DNA of 64,000 nucleotides, from NCBI RefSeq assembly GCF_052324685.1, contig NC_135212.1:47254825-47318824 (forward strand), given 5' to 3'. The notes under the pieces were generated by a model, which was not told where the DNA came from, ran no database searches, and saw only the letters and a list, made by a program, of their open reading frames with translations. Below, one piece after another: positions 24,272 through 38,149 of this stretch (within the stretch, counting starts at the first letter, position 1; every line of letters begins with the position of its first letter). Both the position numbers and the translations under genes were made by a program. This DNA comes from Brachyhypopomus gauderio. Taxonomy: Eukaryota; Chordata; Actinopteri; Gymnotiformes; Hypopomidae.

Positions 24272-24312
24272 GAATTTGGACGTACTATTGAAATGAGTTG
24301 ACGATAAACACT

Positions 24313-25956
24313 ATGTCGAACTCTCCAACAGACCTAAAACTGAACAATGGTTTCTTTGAACTTGAATTTGAGCTAACTGATTCAGAAACTAATGTTACGA
24401 GCGAGAGTGAATCCCTAGGCTCTGACACTGAAAGCATCGAAGGAGGAACAGAGAACGAGGAGCCGCCACAAAAGAAACGTCGTGTGTTCGTTGGCACCTG
24501 GACACCTGGACCCTTCACTCCGAGCCGCTTTGCATTCGACCGCTACGTGATCGGCCCGGCTAAAGGGTTTATAACGTCCACGGACCTGACCGAGTCCGAT
24601 TGTTTCAGACTTTTCCTTGACTCTGAACTGATAAGTCACATTGTGGAGAGGACTAACATATTTGCAACAGACAGCGGTGAGACGGAACATGGCAATGACA
24701 CTGAGAGTTCGTGTTGGACGAACGTCACTGTGCCCGAGATGTACAGCCTATTGGCCTGCTTGCTCCTAATGGGACTCGTAAGGAAGGACAAAGTGGAGGA
24801 GTACTGGACAACAGACCCCCTATCTGAGACTCCCATTTTTGCCAAGGTTTTTACTCAAACGCGGTTTCTGTTGCTTCTCAGGGCAATGCACCTCTCCAGT
24901 ATGAGTGGAGGCCAAGGGTCAGTTCTGAATACTCACAACCACACGGTAATCGCTCATCTCAAGAGCCGCTTTGGTGAGCTTTACCATCCGTCGGAAGAGC
25001 TGCGTATTCAAACGTCTTTCTCGTTGCACGATGCTGCTCTTTCTTGCCAGCCATCAGAGCAGTCCAGTGCTGGCATCCAGCTGATGGCTCTCTCTGATGT
25101 TAAAACTGACTATGTGCTCAACTTTGAGATTTGTACTGGTTATGGCTCTTCAGACTCTGGCATGGCTGAAGGCAACATGTTTTCTGTGTCCATTACCCTG
25201 GAGTTGGTAAGGCCTTACCTTGGGAAGGGCCACGTGCTCTACACAGATGATCGACACAACAGTCCTGGCCTGTTTCGCTACCTCCACAAATTGGGCACTA
25301 ATGCCTGTGGCCCCGTGCGTCTGGCATGGATGCCAAGCTTCACCGAGAACCTGGAGACAGAGTTTCTCCACACAGACTTGCTGTTGGCAGTGAAAAGGCG
25401 TAATGTGGAAGACTTGCCACTTCTATCCTCTGTTCACAGCACGAACATGGCCATAAACTGTGAGGGAGAAGAGGAACCAGAGTGTGAGACTGACTACAAT
25501 CGGGCCATGGGGTCATCCAAGCATCGAGTTGTGCACACCGACTATGCTGACTTTGGTGAAACTCCACTTAGATGGTATCACAAAATTCTTCTTCACTTAA
25601 TGGCCACCACAGTGCAGAATGCCTTTATTATCTATCAGAGCCTTTCAAAGAGTACAACCTCTTTCCATGATTTCCAACTGAACTTGATCAATCAGCTTCT
25701 CAAAATGAATCATCTTGAGACGGGAGAAGCCAGGACCTTTGGTTCAGCAGTCGACACCCCTATGCGGCTGACCGGTCGGCATTTTCCATGGCCTGTGGCG
25801 CAGGATAGCATCATCAACTCCTGGTGCTTTGTGTGTCAGAACACAAGTACTAGAGCATCCCAATTGGTGGAAACAAGCTATATGTGTGCGGAATGTCAGA
25901 AACCACTGTGTGCAGTGCCTTGCTTTGAGATCTACCACACATCAATAGACTATTGA
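24313..25956 (+). CDS. piggyBac transposase-derived protein, probably domesticated
   Basis: One uninterrupted reading frame of 547 aa from ATG 24313 to TGA 25956; an in-frame TTG at 24298 is not used as start because a normal ATG follows. The N-terminus is acidic with an SV40-like basic cluster (PPQKKRRV). The middle is a DDE_Tnp_1_7 (piggyBac) fold. Of the DDD triad, D262 (SDVKTDYVLNFEICTG) and D312 (in TDDRHNSPGLF, family pattern DNFYTSP) remain. The third position, family pattern MGGVD, reads MGSSK with K403. The C-terminus is the piggyBac cysteine-rich domain (CFVC, CAEC, PLCAVPCFE, YHT). An intact frame, a lost catalytic Asp, a spliced leader and no terminal inverted repeats or TTAA duplication that I can see argue for a host gene rather than a live element. 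It does not look like PGBD5. Orthologue name unknown. Confidence 0.85.
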   Translation: MSNSPTDLKLNNGFFELEFELTDSETNVTSESESLGSDTESIEGGTENEEPPQKKRRVFVGTWTPGPFTPSRFAFDRYVIGPAKGFITSTDLTESDCFRLFLDSELISHIVERTNIFATDSGETEHGNDTESSCWTNVTVPEMYSLLACLLLMGLVRKDKVEEYWTTDPLSETPIFAKVFTQTRFLLLLRAMHLSSMSGGQGSVLNTHNHTVIAHLKSRFGELYHPSEELRIQTSFSLHDAALSCQPSEQSSAGIQLMALSDVKTDYVLNFEICTGYGSSDSGMAEGNMFSVSITLELVRPYLGKGHVLYTDDRHNSPGLFRYLHKLGTNACGPVRLAWMPSFTENLETEFLHTDLLLAVKRRNVEDLPLLSSVHSTNMAINCEGEEEPECETDYNRAMGSSKHRVVHTDYADFGETPLRWYHKILLHLMATTVQNAFIIYQSLSKSTTSFHDFQLNLINQLLKMNHLETGEARTFGSAVDTPMRLTGRHFPWPVAQDSIINSWCFVCQNTSTRASQLVETSYMCAECQKPLCAVPCFEIYHTSIDY

Positions 25957-27671: not shown

Positions 27672-30600
27672 ATGACGCAGTTTTTGCCTCCGAACCTGCT
27701 GGCGTTGTTCGCTCCGCGGGACCCGATACCGTTCCTGCCGCAGCTCGAGAAACTTCCCCACGAGAAGCACCACAATCAGCCGTACTCGGGCATCGCTCCC
27801 TTCATCAAGCACTTCGAGGTAGTCTAACGAACTGCGAAGCCTTGTGTATGTGCAACTGTTGAATGATTATGTTGGCGAGCTCTTCAATGGCGAACATGAT
27901 CTTGTTAGGACTTCTCTTTACACATTTTGGAGAAACTCATGATACACGCACAAATAATATTCATATATATAAATATTATTAGGACCCTAGAGATGCCCCG
28001 CCACCTACCAGAGCCGAAACACGAGAGGAGAGGTTGGAGCGAAAGGTGAGACATTTTTGAAAGAGTTTTGTGGATTTTATTTGTATTTATGTTAATGATA
28101 TGAAGACTGTTATGGAAAGGTAAATGCTCTCTTTGATGGAGTTGTGCATTGTTCTATAAATCACAGAGGCGTGAAAAGATGGAGAGGAGGCAGATCGTGG
28201 TAGAGGAGGAGCTGAAGTTGTGTAAGTTAACATGGGATTTAGGTGTTTGAAATGAAATGTGCCATATTTTGTCAATTGTGATTTTTTTTTTACACCCCAA
28301 TCGAAATTTGTCCTCCGCTTCTAACCCATCTGTGCAGTCAGAACACACACACACACACACACACACACTAGTGATTACTAGGGGGCTGTGGATCACACAT
28401 GCCCAGTGCGGTGAGCAGCCCTAGCCCGGGGAGCAGTTGGGGTTAGGTGCCTTGCTCAAGCGCACCTCAGTCAAGGCCTGTCTGGGAATCGAACCCACGA
28501 CCCTCCGGTCACAAGACCAATTCCCTAACCGCCAGCCCATGACTGCCCTTGTAAACACTTAACAAGTACACATTCCAGCGTTATGATCTTGCTCACTTCG
28601 TTTTTTTTTTTGTTTTTTTAACAGGGGATCCTCACAATGATCCCAATGCTCAAGGAGATGCATTCAAAACCTTGTTTGTGGCTCGAATCGTAAGTATTGA
28701 ATTGTGTGGCAGTAGTTACTCAGATATCCAAATATTTCTTTTGGCTTCTCTTACAACATGTTGGTTTTGAACAGAATTATGATACAACGGAGTCCAAGCT
28801 GCGTCGTGAGTTTGAAGTTTATGGTCCTATCAAAAGGGTAAGCTTGGCTTCTGCGTGCTTGTTGCGTTGTCTGACTTTTCTTCTCTGCCCATGCTCATGT
28901 CATTAATTTTACCCCCTCTAGATCTATATAGTATACAACAAGAGGACGGGAAAACCACGTGGCTACGCCTTCATTGAGTATGAACACGAGCGAGACATGC
29001 ACTGTGAGTATGACCGTGCTCGTTTCTCCAGTGTGATTAAGTGCTGTAGCATCAGTGTGTACACACTATTCTTCAGAAGTATTTAAAAGGCCACTTGTGA
29101 GAACCTCTGAAACGAGTCCTTTGGGGTTGTTTGCCTACACATAGTCTGTTTTATTGCTGCTTTTGTCTAGTGCCATTTCCTCTAACCCATCAGCACAGGT
29201 GTGCTTGCTCTATTACACATTTAGCTACTCTAGGGATGTATCACTTAATAGTTTAAGAAATGTTATCCATCTCTTCACAGAAATGTGCACAGCAAACGTA
29301 AAAAAAAAAAAAACAAACAAAAAAAGGCTGTGCCTTTGGAGAAGTCAACGACCCTTCATCGTGTTTGTGTGTCTGTGCGTGACTGTCGGTGTCTTGATCT
29401 CCCATCTGTGCCCCTATGCGGAGTATTCTCTTCCCTGCCTGTGTGTTTGTGTCGCATCAGGTGTGAATGTTCGAGGTGCATTACACATTGATATGGGAAG
29501 GGGCTGGGGCAGGACTATGGCTGTTAGTCCACTACACACACGTTCTGATGAATGTTGCCACTGTATGGCATCTCTAATGTTCAGGCAGTGAGACACATAG
29601 GAGTGTGTGTTTCCGGCAGAGGCGGCGACGGTAAGCTGAAGGCCAGGCCTTCTGTAGTGTCAAGGTGACTCCAAACCCCGTACACCTGTCTGTCTGTTCA
29701 AAGGAGTTGCGGTTAACGTCAAGACTTTTTATTTTCTTTAATACCGTAGCTCAGGTGAGATCATGATGAGTGACGTGTTGCAGCGCAAGTCCATGCAGTG
29801 TATTAATTGTGTGTTGTTCTCGTTGCTACTGCAGCCGCCTATCTCTGATGGCTATTGGCCAGAGCTGGCTTGCAGATCATGCTGATGGTTTTGATACATC
29901 TACACCCTACTACCACAGCTCAGTATATGGTTGGTATGATGGGTTTGTATGATGGGTAAGATTCTTTTCCACCCTCATCTACTTCCAGGCAGAAACAAGG
30001 TGCGCGTTCACTCGACCAAATTGTGTTTGCCTCTTCTGTGGGCAGGAAGGCGACGCCGATGTTTTTGGTCACTGAACGTTCCTTGGGTTAGGCGCAGGGA
30101 GCAGGTGCCTACGGTCAGCCTGTTCCCTCAAAGCCACTGCACATTGATTTGAAAGCCCAGGACTGTACTCTGCAAAATTTAGACGAAGTGTTAAAAACTG
30201 CAGTGAAAAGTACAGTGAGCTGTTAAGTGGCGGCCAGGGTCGGATATCTTATCGAGGACTGAAAGACTTGAGAATGAGGCTTGAGCTTGCGTTAGATCAT
30301 AGTGGTCTTAACCAGCGTGAGGAGAGGAAAAAGTTCCTTCTTTCAACTCCGTTGGATGCTTGGCTAGTTAAAAAGAAAAGGAAAAAAGACCCTATGTGGT
30401 ACTCCACTGTGCTTTTTTTTTTTTTTTTTTTTTAGTTAATTTTACATAAATCCTTGAATGTGATGTATTGTGAAATAAAGGTTGCGTTCAGAGCCTTCTT
30501 GGCTCAGACCCCTTTACACAGCTGCAGAAAGATGTTAAGTTTGTATCTAAATCTTACAGAGTATAGCTGTTTTAATTCTGATTATAGATGGCTTTAATGG

Positions 30601-33600
30601 AATAGGTTAACCAAAGGCAATCCGGTGTCAAGCAGAAGCACTAAGCAATGAAGCTCACTCAGACTAAGGTGGATAGTTGTTGAGCTCTTTAAACATAGCA
30701 TGCAGAAATCAGTATAGTGAAGGTCCCATTTCAGTTCTAGTAATGAATTTTCACCTTTCACCCACATATTCGTAATTTAATATCTGATCCAGCACTGACA
30801 CCAAGACTACGCTGTTCATGCCCCTTCAGAAAAAAACATTTTTCAACTGTTGAATTGAAACTTGAATACCATAGTGCTTTTTAAAAAACAAACACCCCTT
30901 AGCTGTCAGTAACTAGACTGTCTCTGTATCCCTTATAAGTTTGTCACCCTCCCCACCCTCCCCCAGAATGTGCCTTAACTTATACAGAAGTTTAAACCAA
31001 ATGAAATTGTTAGATGCTTGTTAGATCTTCCAACACGCCTTGGTGAGACCACCTGGATATGAACCTTAAATGTGCATGGGGGTTCTTGGTAAGGCCCCTG
31101 GTTTGACGAGAAAAGGACAGGGCTAAGACCAGCTTAATAAACAGGAGTAGAGAGGGTTGGTGGTAAGGCCCTCTGCTTACTGACAGGACGTCTGATGGAC
31201 TGAGGGTTTGTGGTAAGGCCCTCTGGTTGTGATGTGTAGAGAGGGTTCTTGGTAAGGCCCTCTTGTTTTTTTTGCTGGAGTTGAGGGTTGTTGGTAAGGC
31301 CCTCTAACTGAAACAGATTGGACAATCTAGGGAGACACTTGAGGGTTATTGGTAAGGCCCTCTAACTGAAACAGATTGGACAATCTAGGGAGACACTTGA
31401 GGGTTGTTGGTAAGGCCCTCTAGCGGAGAGATTGGAGTGGCTAGGAAAATTGAGGGTTGTCGGTAAGGCCCTCTGAACAGGTTAGAAAGGCCTCTTTTTT
31501 TTCTTTTCTTCCTGCTTCATCCGAGATGGCTGTGCTCGACAGTGCAGACCAGAGTAGCTTCGTGGACCTCATCCAGTCCAGCTGAGTAAAGGATCCCATG
31601 TTTTCGTTTATTTTTAAATCGTTCCACATTTGTCCCAGTCATTGCTGATTGTGCCCAAATATCGAACATATCGAAGTCCAGACTCCAATTTGACTCAGCA
31701 ACAGGAACCAGCAGGCTACGTTTCAAGGGGCTATGTCAACGATGGGTCCCAACCTTGGCCAGGTATTATGGTAAGGTAGAATTTACAGGTAATGTGGTAC
31801 GATGGAGACAATGACTTCTTCACTGGCTTAGATCTGACTCTTGGATTTCTGGAAAGAGAAATGATTACACTGGAAGTTGAGGAGGGATATGCAATATGGC
31901 ACCTCGGATGCATGTAGTGTTGACGAGTACAAAATGTCAGTTCGAATTGTTGAACATGGATTGTGTTGAAGAAAAACAGTATCTTAATGGGGCCATTCTT
32001 TACTTAATGTATTTATTTTTTGGTCTTTTGTGCCTTTGTCTTGATGTGAGGGTGTGGATGGTTGTCGGTAGCTTACCCAATAATGCCCTTTTTAACCGTG
32101 TGTGTGTGCGAGAGAGAGAGAATGTATTAATGCCCCCCATCTGAAGGCTTTACCTGGCTAAAAACTGTTTAATTACATGTGTATATATAGAAAGTGAACA
32201 TATTGATTATTCATCTATCATACAGTAGTTTTTTCCTGCTTTGTTTGATTCAAAGGTATTTTCTTATAGGTTTTTAAACTTGTGTTCATGGACGTGAATA
32301 AATTGTAGATTCATTGTTTATGAAATCGGTGTGCACTTGAACATGTGCTTTTTATTGGCTCCTTTTATTTTTTTTAAACTCCTAAAGTTTTTGTGCCAAG
32401 ATATATGACTGTTTTGTAATATGTTCTCAGTACTTCAGTCTTGGTCAGTGTTGTCAAGAATTGATGCACTTTACATTGTAATGTTCTCCAAGCCATTTTA
32501 AAAATAAGATTTTACCACAACTGAAAGTGTGTATAATATATATTATAAATACAATTATAGGTTAGCAGTTCATTAAAAAAAAATGTTAGTTTGGCTCTAA
32601 ATGCTATGCAGACACAACCTCTGATTAAATTATTATATTGTTTAATTGTTAGGACTGTGTAGGCTAATGAGTGAGTTCTTAGAAGAAGTGTCTAGTCCCA
32701 GATGCAGGAAGGTCAAAACCCCACAACTTCTCATCCACCTAGGATGCTCATTTTGAAGATTCTGATGTAGGCTGAGAATTGAGGATAAGAAAATCATAAA
32801 TATATTCCAGCTTTGTAGTTAACCTTTGGCTTTACCATTAAAAATACTTAATACAAACAAACAAACAAAATCCTCCCAATGCTGGCTAGTGGCTGAGGCT
32901 TCCTGTCTCGCTCCTGTCAGTTAACTGAGGTAAGCCTGTGCCTTTTAATGGCTGTTTGAATTAACATGGGCATCAGACTGTATCTACAGGTAAGACATCA
33001 CCTAAGCAATACTGCATCGTGTTCCCTCTCCTCCCCTTCTCACTGTCTCCTGGTTTTGTCGCTTTTCCCCCCACTCCATTCTGTCTTTTTCTCCCTCTCT
33101 TCTTCCATCCCTTCTACGTTTCATTTTACCACTTTAGCTGCCTACAAGCACGCAGATGGCAAAAAGATTGATGGGCGGCGAGTGCTGGTGGATGTGGAGA
33201 GAGGTCGCACTGTGAAAGGATGGCACCCCCGCAGGCTGGGTAAGGAACTGCATCTGGCAAATATTGGTTACTGTCCTGGTTTTAACCAGCCTTTTCTGGG
33301 ATTAACTGGTTTTTATATATAGCTGGGATTTTTATATAGCTTTAAGTTGAGTAAATATTTAAGCAATTACAAAAATGTCTGATTGTGACTTTGATTGTTC
33401 AAGTAGTTCCTCTAATTTCTTTCCAAGGCGGGGGTCTGGGTGGTACCCGGAGAGGTGGCGCAGACGTTAACATCAAGCACTCTGGCAGAGACGACACCTC
33501 CCGTTATGATGACAGACCCATTGGGAGGTGAGTGTGTGTGCGCCACTCCGGCCTGATTTCACCCCCTCTTCCTGGTAAAGCTCGTCTTGACCGTCTGTCC

Positions 33601-34431
33601 TTCCTGTTGTGTTGCAGTGACCGCGACCGTGACCGTGGAGAACGGCGTGAGCGGAGCCGTGAGCGCGAGCGGGACAAGGAGCGCGGTGAACGCCGGCGCT
33701 CCCGATCCAGGGAGAGGCGCAGGCGAACACGCTCCCGGGAGCGCGAGAGGCCAGTGCCACCGGTCCCCGAGGAGCCGGGCAGCGGCCGTCGCAGGGAGAG
33801 GGAGCGGGACAGGGGGGGCGAGGCCGAGGGCAAGAGCCGGGAGAGGAGTCGTGACCGCGAGCGAGATCGCGAGCGCAAGAGGAGGAGCCGGAGCAGGGAC
33901 AGGAGGAGGGACAGGGAGAGGGGGAAGGGTGGCGAGGAGGGCGTGGGCGGCCTGCCCGACGGCATGATGGGAGAGGGAGGGGAGAGAGGCCAGGAAGAGC
34001 CGAGCGGGGGTGAGCCTGGGCGGGGCGAAGAGGGAGGCCCGGAGGGAGAGGAGCGAGGGAGGGACCGGGACAGGGAGAGGGACCGAGACCGTGACAGGAA
34101 GCGTAGCCACAGGGATAAAGACAGAGACCGAGACAGGGAGAGGAGACGGGACCGAGACAGAGATCGCGAACACAAACGGGACAGGGGGGATCGTGAGCGG
34201 GGCGGGGAGCGGCGGGAGGACAGGCACGCTCCGCTGCTGCCCCCTATGGGTGATCATGAAGGATTGGGTAATGGAGGAGAGGAAGGGGAGGAGTCTGTCC
34301 CGCCACAATCTGAGGAAGGCTCCCAGGACGGGATGGGGATGATGATGGACCAAGACTCCATGCAGTCTGGGGAAGGCTACGGCTCCAACGAAAATGGATA
34401 CAGGATGGACATGCAGGGTGATGAATATTAG
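27672..34431 (+). CDS. snrnp70: U1 small nuclear ribonucleoprotein 70 kDa (U1-70K)
   Basis: Nine coding exons: 27672-27818, 27983-28045, 28167-28221, 28625-28689, 28775-28837, 28922-29003, 33138-33239, 33428-33527 and 33618-34431. They total 1491 nt, or 496 aa (human 437). U1-70K binds stem-loop 1 of U1 snRNA and is needed for 5' splice site recognition. The N-terminal tail [20 protein letters not shown] is conserved (it contacts the U1 Sm core and U1C). The RRM spans about residues 100-180 with RNP2 LFVARI and RNP1 RGYAFIEY. A Gly-rich stretch ([11 protein letters not shown]) follows. The last exon codes a long disordered R-E/R-D/R-S tail ending RMDMQGDEY; this tail is longer than in human. 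The intron after exon 29003 is 4.1 kb, far larger than the rest of the gene's introns. It carries the hairpin array, candidate poison exon and AATAAA signals annotated separately. Confidence 0.96.
28342..28548 (-). mobile_element. tRNA-derived SINE in snrnp70 intron 4
   Basis: Read on the minus strand, a tRNA-like head begins near 28548 (GGGCAGTCATGGGCTGGCGG, A-box region). A good B-box, GGGTTCGATTCCC, is at 28496-28484. The body has GAGCAAGGCACCTAACCCC and the 3' end is a (GT)n tail at 28368-28342. The head resembles tRNA-Ser/Leu and the body resembles a SINE family widespread in teleosts. It is antisense to the host gene. Exact family name not assigned. Confidence 0.75.
30474..30479 (+). 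promoter_or_regulatory. intronic polyadenylation signal, snrnp70 intron 7
   Basis: AATAAA in sense orientation within intron 7, about 600 nt upstream of the hairpin array. It is a candidate for premature cleavage and polyadenylation. A 22-nt T run lies about 40 nt upstream (30413-30434). Confidence 0.4.
31078..31473 (+). repeat. array of eight GGTAAG-presenting hairpins in snrnp70 intron 7
   Basis: Eight 22-nt units start at 31078, 31152, 31202, 31241, 31283, 31341, 31399 and 31452. The architecture is arm GAGGGTT, loop NNNGGTAA, arm GGCCCTC. The arms pair over 7 bp (five Watson-Crick and two U-G). The first three loop bases vary (CTT, GGT, TGT, CTT, GTT, ATT, GTT, GTC) while GGTAA and the arms stay fixed. 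Unit 1 has G for A in the left arm and C for T in the right arm, a compensatory change that keeps the pair. Spacers mostly differ in sequence and length (17-52 nt); units 5-7 lie in a 58-bp tandem duplication. GGTAAG is complementary to the 5' end of U1 snRNA and equals the real exon 8 donor (G followed by GTAAGG at 33239-33245). Confidence 0.85.
31136..31141 (+). promoter_or_regulatory. polyadenylation signal inside the hairpin array
   Basis: AATAAA between hairpin units 1 and 2, followed by GT-rich sequence within units 2 and 3. U1 snRNP bound next to such a signal is known to block polyadenylation, in part through U1-70K contacting poly(A) polymerase. Its use here is inferred. Confidence 0.4.
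31526..31585 (+). other. candidate poison exon of snrnp70
   Basis: A strong pyrimidine tract (about 31490-31520) ends at CCGAG, and a donor-like GTAAAG begins at 31586, enclosing 60 nt. Spliced to exon 29003 (phase +1) it reads nine sense codons after the junction codon TAT and then TAG at 31555-31557, so inclusion would truncate the RRM. Human SNRNP70 has an alternative stop-containing exon in the same intron, as I recall. The acceptor AG is preceded by G rather than C/T, which is weak, so the exact boundary is uncertain. Confidence 0.45.
32297..32302 (+). promoter_or_regulatory. intronic polyadenylation signal downstream of the candidate poison exon
   Basis: Sense-strand AATAAA about 710 nt past the candidate poison exon and 840 nt before exon 33138, in AT- and T-rich sequence. 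It could end a short snrnp70 transcript. Confidence 0.4.
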
Positions 34432-35577: not shown

Positions 35578-38149
35578 ATGGCGGCTATGACGGAACCACT
35601 GTGTTTAGAAAGAGGTAGGCTAATCCTGCAATGAAATATTTAATTAGCTCCTTGGACGTTATAACTGAGTATAATACTAAGAATATGAACCGGGAATCCC
35701 GTCTTTGGTATTTATTTACTTGTTGTATTTAGCGGGTACTAGTTTGGAATGGTGGTCACTTGTGACCTGGGCATGAAGTAGCCATAGGATGAATGGACAC
35801 CGCCTGCACATCATTCGCAGTGTTCACCCTACCTACGTGTGACCGCTTTGTTCTCCCGGTGAACATGCCGTGTTATACATGTTCCTAATGACATTAGCTA
35901 TATTAAATGTTAACAGTTCGCATGGATTCTGTACCTGGTATAATTAACACGGTTTACGTGGCTCTTATCTGGCTAATCGCCTCCACATTTAGATTGCCTA
36001 CTAGATTAGTTCTTCCTTTCCAGTAATTTTCTTGCCCCTATAAACACGTGCATTTGACTGTGGACCTATAAAATGCATTCAATCTTTGCATTAAAAAACA
36101 ATCTTCATTTCCATCTTCCAATATTTCCATTCCATGTGTATGATGGCAGTGTTGGCCTCACACTTCCTGCTCTGTGGTCTTTGGCCCAGATGTGTGTAGA
36201 GTGATTGAGCTGTTGGACCGTCTGCAAAGGAGTGGCGAACTGCCGCCCCCCAAGCTGCAGGCCCTGCAGAGAGTCCTCCAGAGCAAGTTCTGTGCTGCCA
36301 TCAGAGAGGTGGGCTTCCCGCACCGCCCATGCCCACACACCTGCTGCTGCGATGCTCTGGCCTTCCACAGAGAATTCTGCTTCACAGTTCTTTATTTATC
36401 CTCAAACAAGCACTATTTGTCTTTAAAGACGATGTCCAATCCAACAGGTCCTTGGTTATTTGGGACTTTGTCCTCTAAACCTGCTTTTTGGCTGCCCTTA
36501 ATTATGCTATTGTTATCCTCTTTAAGATGTTGGATGCTCCCCATTAGACTCCCATGTGGGTGGGAGAGGTTTTAAATGCAGGGAACGAGTCACTGATATG
36601 GCTGCAGTGTTCTATCTTTATTCCACACCTCCACAGGCACCTGCCACCGCCTCTTCTGACAGCGTGTCTCCCATCTCTCAAATTGCCCTTTCACTATGAC
36701 TTGCAACTTGTAGCACTAGGGCAATTTTGAGTTCATCATTGTTTACAGCTGAAAGGGTTGTGCACAAGCACAAGACAGATATTACACTTTACTAACCAGT
36801 GCAGAAGGTCCACACACACACACTAGCTAATTCCCTGCCCCTGCCTGGATGACTGACCACACTCAAACCTACACCATCCAGCTGTCTTTTATGGGTCCAA
36901 ATTGCCTTTCTGTCTCTCCCCCCTAATAGGTATATGAACAGCTCTACGACACCTTGGACATTGTGGGTGGACCTGAGGTTCGTGCTCAGGCAACAGCTAA
37001 GGCAAATCTTTCACTGCAGTATTTTTGTATAAAAAAGTATAGAAGCTTTACTACAGAAGTAAATATAGGCTTCATAGCCAAAGGTGAAATGTCATTGTGA
37101 ATGTGAAATCAATGCCAATAAATGATGCATCCATAGAACGTTTAGAATGCACGTATAAGCCAGTCTATACTTATGACCATGAAAACCTGAGTTGGTCCTC
37201 TTATATAGATTGTACATATAGGGCCTATTGGTTCTTATTTTCCTTATGTCTAATGAGGCTTTTATGGTCTGTGTCCAGTGTCTGCTTTGTCTTTCACATG
37301 GTGCTCTTGTTCCTGGCTCGCGTTCCACCCACTCTAGGCCACCGTAGCTGCCTTTGCAGCCAGCGAAGGCCACGCCCACCCCCGCGTTGTGGAGCTTCCC
37401 AAGACGGACGAGGGCCTGGGCTTCAACATCATGGGAGGGAAAGAGCAGAACTCTCCCATTTACATCTCCAGGGTGATTCCCGGGGGTGTGGCTGACCGAC
37501 AGGGTGGCCTGAAGAGGGGTGACCAGCTGTTGTCTGTCAATGGCGTGGTACGTAGTGTGGCCGGGGTGATTTCAGTTCAGTTTTTCAGTGTCCACTGTTC
37601 TTCCTCTACATGTACGTGATGTAGTCAGTTACCAAGACAATAATATTTCGCCACAACTGTTCTCCGTTCTGTCTGCCCTATAATTCCTTGCTCACAGAGT
37701 GTGGAGGGTGAGCATCACGAGAAGGCCGTAGAGCTCCTGAAAGCCGCACAGGGCTCGGTGAAGCTCGTCGTGCGCTACACCCCAAAAGTGCTCGAGGAGA
37801 TGGAGGCCAGATTTGAAAAGCTTCGCAGTGCCAGCAGGAGGCGCCAGCAGCACACCAGCTACTCGTGAGTGCGTTCCTGCCTTCTCGGTCGCGGTAGCGT
37901 GCTGACGACGCCACAGAACGGTCAGCAAATGTTTACGTGCAGTCTGGAGAAGAGAATCTGTTCTGCTGTGACGGATGCTAATGTTCATCTACTCTCTTGT
38001 GTTGTGAATTATACCGTGTAAATGCCGTGTAAATTCTAAATTAAGTGTCCTCTAGTGTCCATATGGTAACATAATGCTTCAGAGTGAGACTTAATTTATT
38101 GTTTCTCCTTTCCTTTTAACATTACAGGTCTTTGGAGTCTCGGGGTTAA
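35578..38149 (+). CDS. lin7b: Lin-7 homolog B, L27/PDZ scaffold protein
   Basis: Six coding exons: 35578-35614, 36190-36308, 36930-37001, 37338-37547, 37698-37864 and 38128-38149. They total 627 nt, or 208 aa (human LIN7B 207). The L27 domain is about residues 10-65 ([20 protein letters not shown]) and the PDZ domain about residues 93-175, with carboxylate-binding loop LGFN. The C-terminus SSLESRG matches the LIN7 family. LIN7 proteins form the LIN-2/7/10 complex with CASK and place receptors and channels at synapses and basolateral membranes. The intron after 37001 appears to start with GC rather than GT (AAG then GCAAAT); the conserved peptide ATAKATVAAF requires this junction. SNRNP70-LIN7B adjacency is also found in human. 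Confidence 0.95.

Follow-up and report, generated by a model that had tools for sequence, protein, structure and literature searches.

The balance of U1 small nuclear ribonucleoprotein particles (snRNPs) in the cell is incompletely understood, the one control that has been studied well being a switch in the gene of the U1 protein U1-70K, and the locus described here raises the question in a particular form: why does intron 7 of this gene (snrnp70) in the fish Brachyhypopomus gauderio carry eight near-identical hairpins, each with a donor-like GGUAAG word that is complementary to the 5' end of U1 small nuclear RNA (snRNA)? The window, by which we mean the whole stretch of 64,000 nucleotides (nt) analysed, corresponds to positions 47254825-47318824 of contig C2 in a genome of 796.5 Mb. 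The array is real, is specific to this locus, and lies within the known autoregulatory intron of U1-70K. Its function is putative; the reading that we favour, tentatively and with somewhat less than even confidence, is that of a multivalent docking array, which would be read by U1 snRNP and would keep intron-7-containing transcripts unproductive and nuclear.

The array consists of eight 22-nt units within about 400 nt (31078-31473) on the sense strand of snrnp70, as follows.

31078-31099, plus strand: hairpin unit 1, with the variant stem GGGGG/CCCCT
31152-31173, plus strand: hairpin unit 2
31202-31223, plus strand: hairpin unit 3
31241-31262, plus strand: hairpin unit 4
31283-31304, plus strand: hairpin unit 5, inside the first of the 58-nt tandem copies
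31341-31362, plus strand: hairpin unit 6, inside the next 58-nt tandem copy, which shares 98% identity with its predecessor
31399-31420, plus strand: hairpin unit 7
31452-31473, plus strand: hairpin unit 8

The units start 74, 50, 39, 42, 58, 58 and 53 nt apart, and 16 of their 22 columns (1, 3-7 and 11-20) are invariant. For the 18-mer core with up to three mismatches, the window holds eight matches against 0.89 expected, a number reached in none of 100 shuffles. As a sequence-only reading of this DNA had described, all eight units can fold into a 7-pair stem around an 8-nt loop (NKYGGUAA in the RNA) with an invariant GGTAA. The stem is made up of five outer pairs, all Watson-Crick save the lowest pair of unit 1, which is G.U, and of two U.G wobbles that close the loop in all units; across the seven distinct rows, 49 of 49 stem cells are paired, and in the best fold of unit 3 one additional pair is closed. 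The compensatory change claimed for unit 1 is indeed present, pair 2 being altered on both sides from A-U to G-C, and pair 1 of the same unit has passed from G-C to G.U. In favour of an element acting as sense RNA, the fold energies of the units range from -8.8 to -10.8 kcal/mol in the sense orientation versus -5.5 to -5.9 kcal/mol on the opposite strand, where the wobbles turn into C.A mismatches. Similarly, when a hairpin is required to have a stem of at least six pairs, at least three of them G-C, 8 of the 29 GGTAAG words on the plus strand of the window lie in a hairpin loop, all eight being the array units; the corresponding minus-strand figure is 1 in 13. When the units are folded with flanks of 20 nt, the stem is likely in every one of them (probability 0.69-1.00).

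The sequence-only reading had also held that most spacers between the units are unrelated, which is true of most of them and fails for the 3' part of the array: spacers 5-6 and 6-7 are identical (36/36), and spacer 7-8 repeats their sequence in diverged form. Of the four remaining spacers, 2-3 alone shows a weak similarity to 5-6 and 6-7 (p about 0.02; 21 pairs were tested), so that clearly related spacers are confined to the part between units 5 and 8 and the head-to-tail copies of a whole period that make up a minisatellite are not seen. In support of a functional element, any two units agree on average at 0.90 of their positions, compared with 0.30 and 0.32 for the 14-nt flanks, and after removal of units 6 and 7 the mean identities are 0.88 versus 0.29 and 0.30. 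Spacers 6-7 and 7-8 match at 22 of 31 ungapped aligned bases, and the units that follow them differ at 1 position in 22, located in the free part of the loop, for which the probability at the spacer rate is about 0.005. The units are thus apparently under constraint, by an argument made within the array of one genome. The 13 DRACH motifs in the array lend no significant support to N6-methyladenosine modification, since 5.8% of plus-strand windows of the same size reach 13, a search of the window against Rfam at gathering scores, with weaker matches not sought, gave no match, and the tRNA search gave none. At 32057-32070 of the window there is a segment, GATGGTTGTCGGTA, that agrees at 13 of 14 positions with the left part of unit 8 and has no right arm; it is perhaps a decayed ninth unit, or else a chance match.

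In the whole genome, the exact 22-mer pattern was found in seven copies, all of them in the array, with unit 1 three mismatches off, and the nearest sites elsewhere are three single places with two mismatches each, in a word search that may skip very common words. With up to three mismatches and the array included, 79 forward and 62 reverse matches were obtained versus 35 and 34 in the backward control. The occurrence of the same 22-mer at many loci, as in an ordinary satellite, had been named as an outcome that would speak against the array; instead, the array is the sole locus found, and since the 22-mer was found only at snrnp70, it is not mobile or satellite sequence. An interspersed repeat, satellite or mobile sequence was accordingly rejected, with no exact copy of the 22-mer outside the array. 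Searches of the sets viral_contigs and genome_contigs, neither of which is expected to contain fish, returned 0 and 0 exact copies. About 40 of the matches listed in the 3-mismatch search belong to a repeat containing GAGGGTTTCCCGTACGGCCCAC that occurs on many contigs and is unrelated to the array. The hairpins were also sought in the U1C gene: its candidate locus (SNRPC), which was chosen from the zf-U1 family matches and for which the gene name is presumed, has one and five GGTAAG words on its two strands, none of them in a hairpin loop.

The host of the array was assigned by the sequence-only reading to intron 7 of the U1-70K gene, and this assignment fits both the exon phase and the reading frame. 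Nine coding exons on the plus strand encode a product of 496 amino acids without stop, in which the U1-70K N-terminal domain (E 5.5e-25) and an RRM (E 3.1e-20) are recognized; exons are numbered as in the human gene, so that translation starts in exon 2.

27672-27818, 27983-28045, 28167-28221, 28625-28689 and 28775-28837, plus strand: the first five of the nine snrnp70 coding exons in the map
28922-29003, plus strand: snrnp70 exon 7 of the exon map, with the donor ACT/GTGAGT (cut after ACT)
29004-33137, plus strand: snrnp70 intron 7, 4,134 nt, host of the array, from the exon map of the intact 496-amino-acid U1-70K
33138-33239, plus strand: snrnp70 exon 8 of the exon map, with the donor CTGG/GTAAGG (cut after CTGG)
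33428-33527 and 33618-34431, plus strand: the last two coding exons of snrnp70 in the map

No second snrnp70 copy was seen in a genome search with the first 225 amino acids of U1-70K: of 33 matches, 7 fall on exons of the gene itself, and identity does not exceed 43% in the remaining 26, the best of which is a 304-amino-acid frame on contig C10, perhaps the gene of U11-35K, a name that we presume.

In support of a U1-related role, the intron that holds the array also holds the homologue of a published U1-sensing element. According to PMC3798272, human U1-70K intron 7 contains an alternative acceptor, an exon 7a with a premature stop, and three U1-binding cryptic donors, A-C; the 7a acceptor is activated by U1C-containing U1, and the authors conclude that after its use the rest of intron 7 is left largely unspliced and the product is directed to nonsense-mediated decay; the same U1C dependence is reported for zebrafish and mouse cells. 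With a human query obtained by reversing and joining the morpholino sequences printed in PMC3798272, the donor cluster was aligned locally to 29923-29962 with a score of 62 (36 of 39 aligned bases matching, one gap), whereas neither the plus strand outside 29001-33200 nor the whole minus strand gave more than 28, and the highest score in 30 intron shuffles was 30.

29835-29922, plus strand: exon 7a homologue up to site A, with the acceptor ctactgcag/CCGCC (cut after ctactgcag) and an in-frame premature TGA at 29846-29848
29923-29962, plus strand: cryptic 5' splice sites A (GT at 29923), B (GT at 29934) and C (GT at 29956), homologous to the human morpholino-covered 40-mer

The published U1C-dependent switch thus appears, from this alignment, to be present in this species, with the array beginning 1,122 nt (about 1.1 kb) downstream of site C. 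U1 sensing in U1-70K intron 7 is not new, having been in print since 2013 (PMC3798272), and the sequence-only reading, in proposing a U1-sensing autoregulation through this intron, was right in kind and overlooked exon 7a: the known element is exon 7a with sites A-C, not the array. In the open-licence PubMed Central literature searched, no prior description of such a hairpin array was found; in the available part of PMC12363940, U1-70K appears only as a reference and an antibody row, and the word hairpin is absent from the main text of PMC3798272.

Intron 7 has further candidate features. Six AATAAA/ATTAAA words are present in it, including one inside the array, and just 3' of the array there is a candidate exon with the weak donor TGA/GTAAAG (cut after TGA). 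This candidate was ruled out as exon 7a, which the human morpholino sequences put at 29835.

31136-31141, plus strand: AATAAA between hairpin units 1 and 2, a possible intronic polyadenylation (poly(A)) signal
31526-31585, plus strand: candidate second poison exon just 3' of the array, marked by its long pyrimidine tract and early in-frame TAG at 31555-31557

Can the loops be read by U1? The U1 gene family has 42 matches in the genome, and the four copies read all begin ATACTTACCTG, to which GGTAAG, that is, the loop core and the first stem base, is fully complementary, as had been proposed; the further statement that this word equals the gene's own exon 8 donor also holds, CTGG/GTAAGG containing GGTAAG. 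Six pairs to the U1 5' end are available in 8/8 units, with duplex energies of -8.5 to -8.7 kcal/mol, compared with -5.4 to -12.7 kcal/mol for the eight constitutive snrnp70 donors. The 3' partners of both loop-closing wobble pairs coincide with donor positions +5 and +6, and wobbles fixed there would be expected if a stem is needed yet the hexamer must open. Favouring accessibility, the computed median cost of opening GGUAA is 0.2, 0.5 and 0.7 kcal/mol in the eight units at 20, 40 and 80 nt of flank, versus 1.9, 3.4 and 3.5 kcal/mol at the other GGTAAG sites of the plus strand, 21 in number. When all of GGUAAG is opened, the median cost is 2.2-2.3 kcal/mol in the units versus 3.0-4.5 kcal/mol at the 21 other sites. 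The U1 snRNA genes at G000:C26:1044-43276 and on C33 and C445 form tandem arrays with periods of about 790 bases and about 14 kb, and among the four copies read the two from C26 differ near stem-loop I from those of C14 and C33.

In the predicted mechanism of a U1 docking array, the array would act at the RNA level as a cis-element of the snrnp70 pre-mRNA, in which the weak U.G lid opens and offers GGUAAG to the U1 snRNA 5' end for six pairs, with the lower five pairs remaining folded; beyond this base-pairing, all of the steps are ones that we infer. Eight sites in 400 nt would dock several U1 snRNPs, U1-70K included, on intron-7-containing transcripts, namely those with intron 7 fully retained or those with exon 7 joined to 7a and the remaining intron 7 kept. 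The U1-loaded transcripts would then be held unspliced in the nucleus and broken down there, while fewer premature 3' ends would form within intron 7, so that less productive snrnp70 mRNA would be made when intact U1 snRNP is plentiful; the array would constitute a second, multivalent layer above the known exon 7a switch. The occupancy by U1, the direction of the effect and the link to nuclear retention are all presumed here. In rodent smooth muscle, a second non-productive Snrnp70 RNA is found largely in the nucleus; its annotation is that of an internal poly(A) event, but it probably represents a retained intron (PMC5062968). RNAs with intact 5' splice site motifs, moreover, are reported to be retained in the nucleus via ZFC3H1 and U1-70K (PMC11629677). 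Control of intronic 3'-end formation is a possible further outlet, given the AATAAA of the array and the five other AATAAA/ATTAAA words of the intron. A more specific proposal seems to us doubtful, that of a U1 snRNP-counting device which evolved inside the U1-70K gene and in which the eight wobble-lid hairpins, displaying a U1-complementary hexamer, titrate intact U1 on intron 7 and set the nuclear, unproductive share of snrnp70 RNA; it would be a layer of U1 homeostasis beyond the exon 7a switch.

Several results weigh against U1 docking. The match to U1 ends at six pairs, position -2 being always a pyrimidine and +6 always G, so that the units are not optimal U1 sites by their sequence, and binding through all six pairs would require the opening of at least the closing wobble pair. 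The computed accessibility of the loops is mixed and the effects of the hairpins are modest: the cost of opening the whole GGUAAG is lower than elsewhere only with longer flanks (p 0.34, 0.059 and 0.0056 at 20, 40 and 80 nt), and scrambling the 5' arm changes it little. With 60 nt of flank, the stem probability is low in units 1, 4 and 7 (0.00, 0.22 and 0.01), several hairpins not being dominant in longer contexts because arms of different units pair mutually, and the fold of the 441-nt region is hardly more stable than that of shuffled sequence (z -1.65, with 5 of 100 shuffles as good). Covariation amounts to one pair in unit 1, and 65 of 500 shuffles reach the same. Finally, three GGTAAGG words at the array spacing are common in the genome (1,500 forward and 1,507 reverse places versus 588 and 593 in the backward control), and this search, with about 3,000 matches, did not single out the snrnp70 locus; among the matches listed, which come from the first part of contig C1, most look like ordinary tandem repeats. 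Since such clusters are common genome-wide, donor-like words that merely occur close together do not speak for a function here, and what sets the array apart is the hairpin together with its conservation pattern.

The strongest rival to U1 docking, and one that does not exclude it, regards the hairpins as docking sites for the FET proteins (TAF15, FUS and EWSR1), which, perhaps jointly with U1 snRNP, would keep intron 7 in an unspliced, nuclear state. A TAF15/FUS-type reader fits the loop about as well as U1 does: the motif of TAF15 from crosslinking and immunoprecipitation is GGUAAGU and its in vitro motif (A/G)GGUA (PMC4935974), a review table gives GGUAAGU/GGUG for TAF15, with single strands and hairpin loops as the structural context (PMC7404189), and in FUS the RRM reads a stem-loop and the zinc finger reads GGU (PMC10687056). 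The GGU(A) of such sites (PMC4935974), exposed in a single strand or hairpin loop, is found as GGTAA in the loop of 8/8 units, and FET binding would account for the kept stem and GGUAA as well as for the non-U1-like -2 and +6 positions. Moreover, Snrnp70 is named among the retained-intron transcripts of a FUS mutant comparison (PMC7337901), the available part of which does not identify the affected intron. However, the in vitro preference of TAF15 is for a purine before GGUA (PMC4935974), whereas the units carry a pyrimidine (T in seven, C in one), and we consider a FET reader rather unlikely.

The alternative that the array is a local repeat devoid of function, arising from a hairpin-prone segment copied by slippage and gene conversion inside one intron, accounts for the part that has plainly arisen by tandem duplication not long ago (58-nt copies, of which one pair shares 98% identity) in a genome where tandem GGTAAGG repeats are common. 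It is difficult to reconcile with conservation that ends sharply at the 22-nt unit, leaving spacers of 17-52 nt mostly unrelated, unlike a whole-period duplication, with the joint keeping of stem, wobble lid and GGTAA, and with the position in U1-70K and intron 7 specifically, and it seems more clearly improbable. Nor is RNA required by any of the data: 5-base-pair inverted arms in eight copies of a sharply bounded 22-base-pair motif would also suit a homotypic DNA cluster, a GAGGG-N12-CCCTC palindrome bound by a dimeric or multi-finger DNA-binding protein. The two-pair extension of the stem, however, holds only with U.G wobbles, that is, in sense RNA, unit 1 preserves pair 1 through G.U, and the asymmetric centre equals the core of a 5' splice site; a DNA-level role seems very improbable. 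Marginally less probable again is that the units are true decoy donors, which would form cryptic exons, by pairing with an upstream acceptor-like stretch or by preceding the candidate exon at 31526, and stall the splicing of intron 7. GT donors with middling U1 pairing (-8.5 to -8.7) in 8/8 units and pyrimidine-rich, acceptor-like stretches on both sides, such as the tract ending at 30966, are in its favour, but the flanking acceptors are candidates only, and hairpins around donors are generally thought to hinder donor use.

Two neighbours of the gene were noted in passing. Some 1.7 kb before the snrnp70 coding sequence begins, an uninterrupted 554-amino-acid transposase-like frame on the plus strand (24292-25953) matches DDE_Tnp_1_7 (E 3.6e-46) and zf-Tnp_2 (E 2.4e-7); we take it to be of the piggyBac type, either intact or domesticated. 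On the other side, a PDZ-domain exon at 37338-37616 (E 5.6e-15) is probably that of lin7b, a neighbour of SNRNP70 in human as well.

If U1 docking is true, feedback on a spliceosomal component can use repeated, hairpin-displayed donor sites and thereby a graded, multi-site reading, and the intron would offer a natural test bed for the action of several U1 snRNPs on one RNA without splicing, in retention, decay or poly(A) control. If the reader is instead TAF15 or FUS, the FET proteins would be tied directly to the dosage of U1-70K.

The array is worth comparing with other systems in which the components of the processing machinery are regulated through their own transcripts. By comparison with the U12-type consensus, the loop word GGTAAGG is U2-type-like, and tandem U12-type donors, which define the USSE, are not found in the array. 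The USSE of U11-48K and U11/U12-65K resembles the array in that the gene of an snRNP component carries several donor-like sites, whose reading by that snRNP gives unproductive RNA, but it consists of tandem U12-type sites read by U11, whereas the array has eight U2-type-like sites in hairpin loops (PMC5473595). The polyadenylation inhibition element of U1A is likewise structured and carried by the pre-mRNA of a U1 protein itself; unlike the array, it is located in the 3' untranslated region and is bound by free U1A protein (PMC6884704). In CstF-77, feedback also runs through an intron under U1 influence, intron 3, where a weak donor and a single intronic poly(A) site act in place of an array (PMC3708835). 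Retention by ZFC3H1 and U1-70K, where intact donor motifs mark unprocessed RNA for retention and decay, is similar in its outcome but is a general pathway, for which the available text describes no multi-hairpin array (PMC11629677). Closest is the exon 7a switch of U1-70K itself, with which the array shares the gene, intron 7 and U1-complementary donor-like sites, those of the switch being rarely used as splice sites (PMC3798272). In the switch, the sites are three in number, linear and non-repeated (A and B weak, C stronger), and lie close together just downstream of the 7a acceptor (PMC3798272), a place occupied in this fish by the separate element at 29923-29962; in clear contrast, the array comprises eight near-identical hairpins 1.1 kb further downstream.

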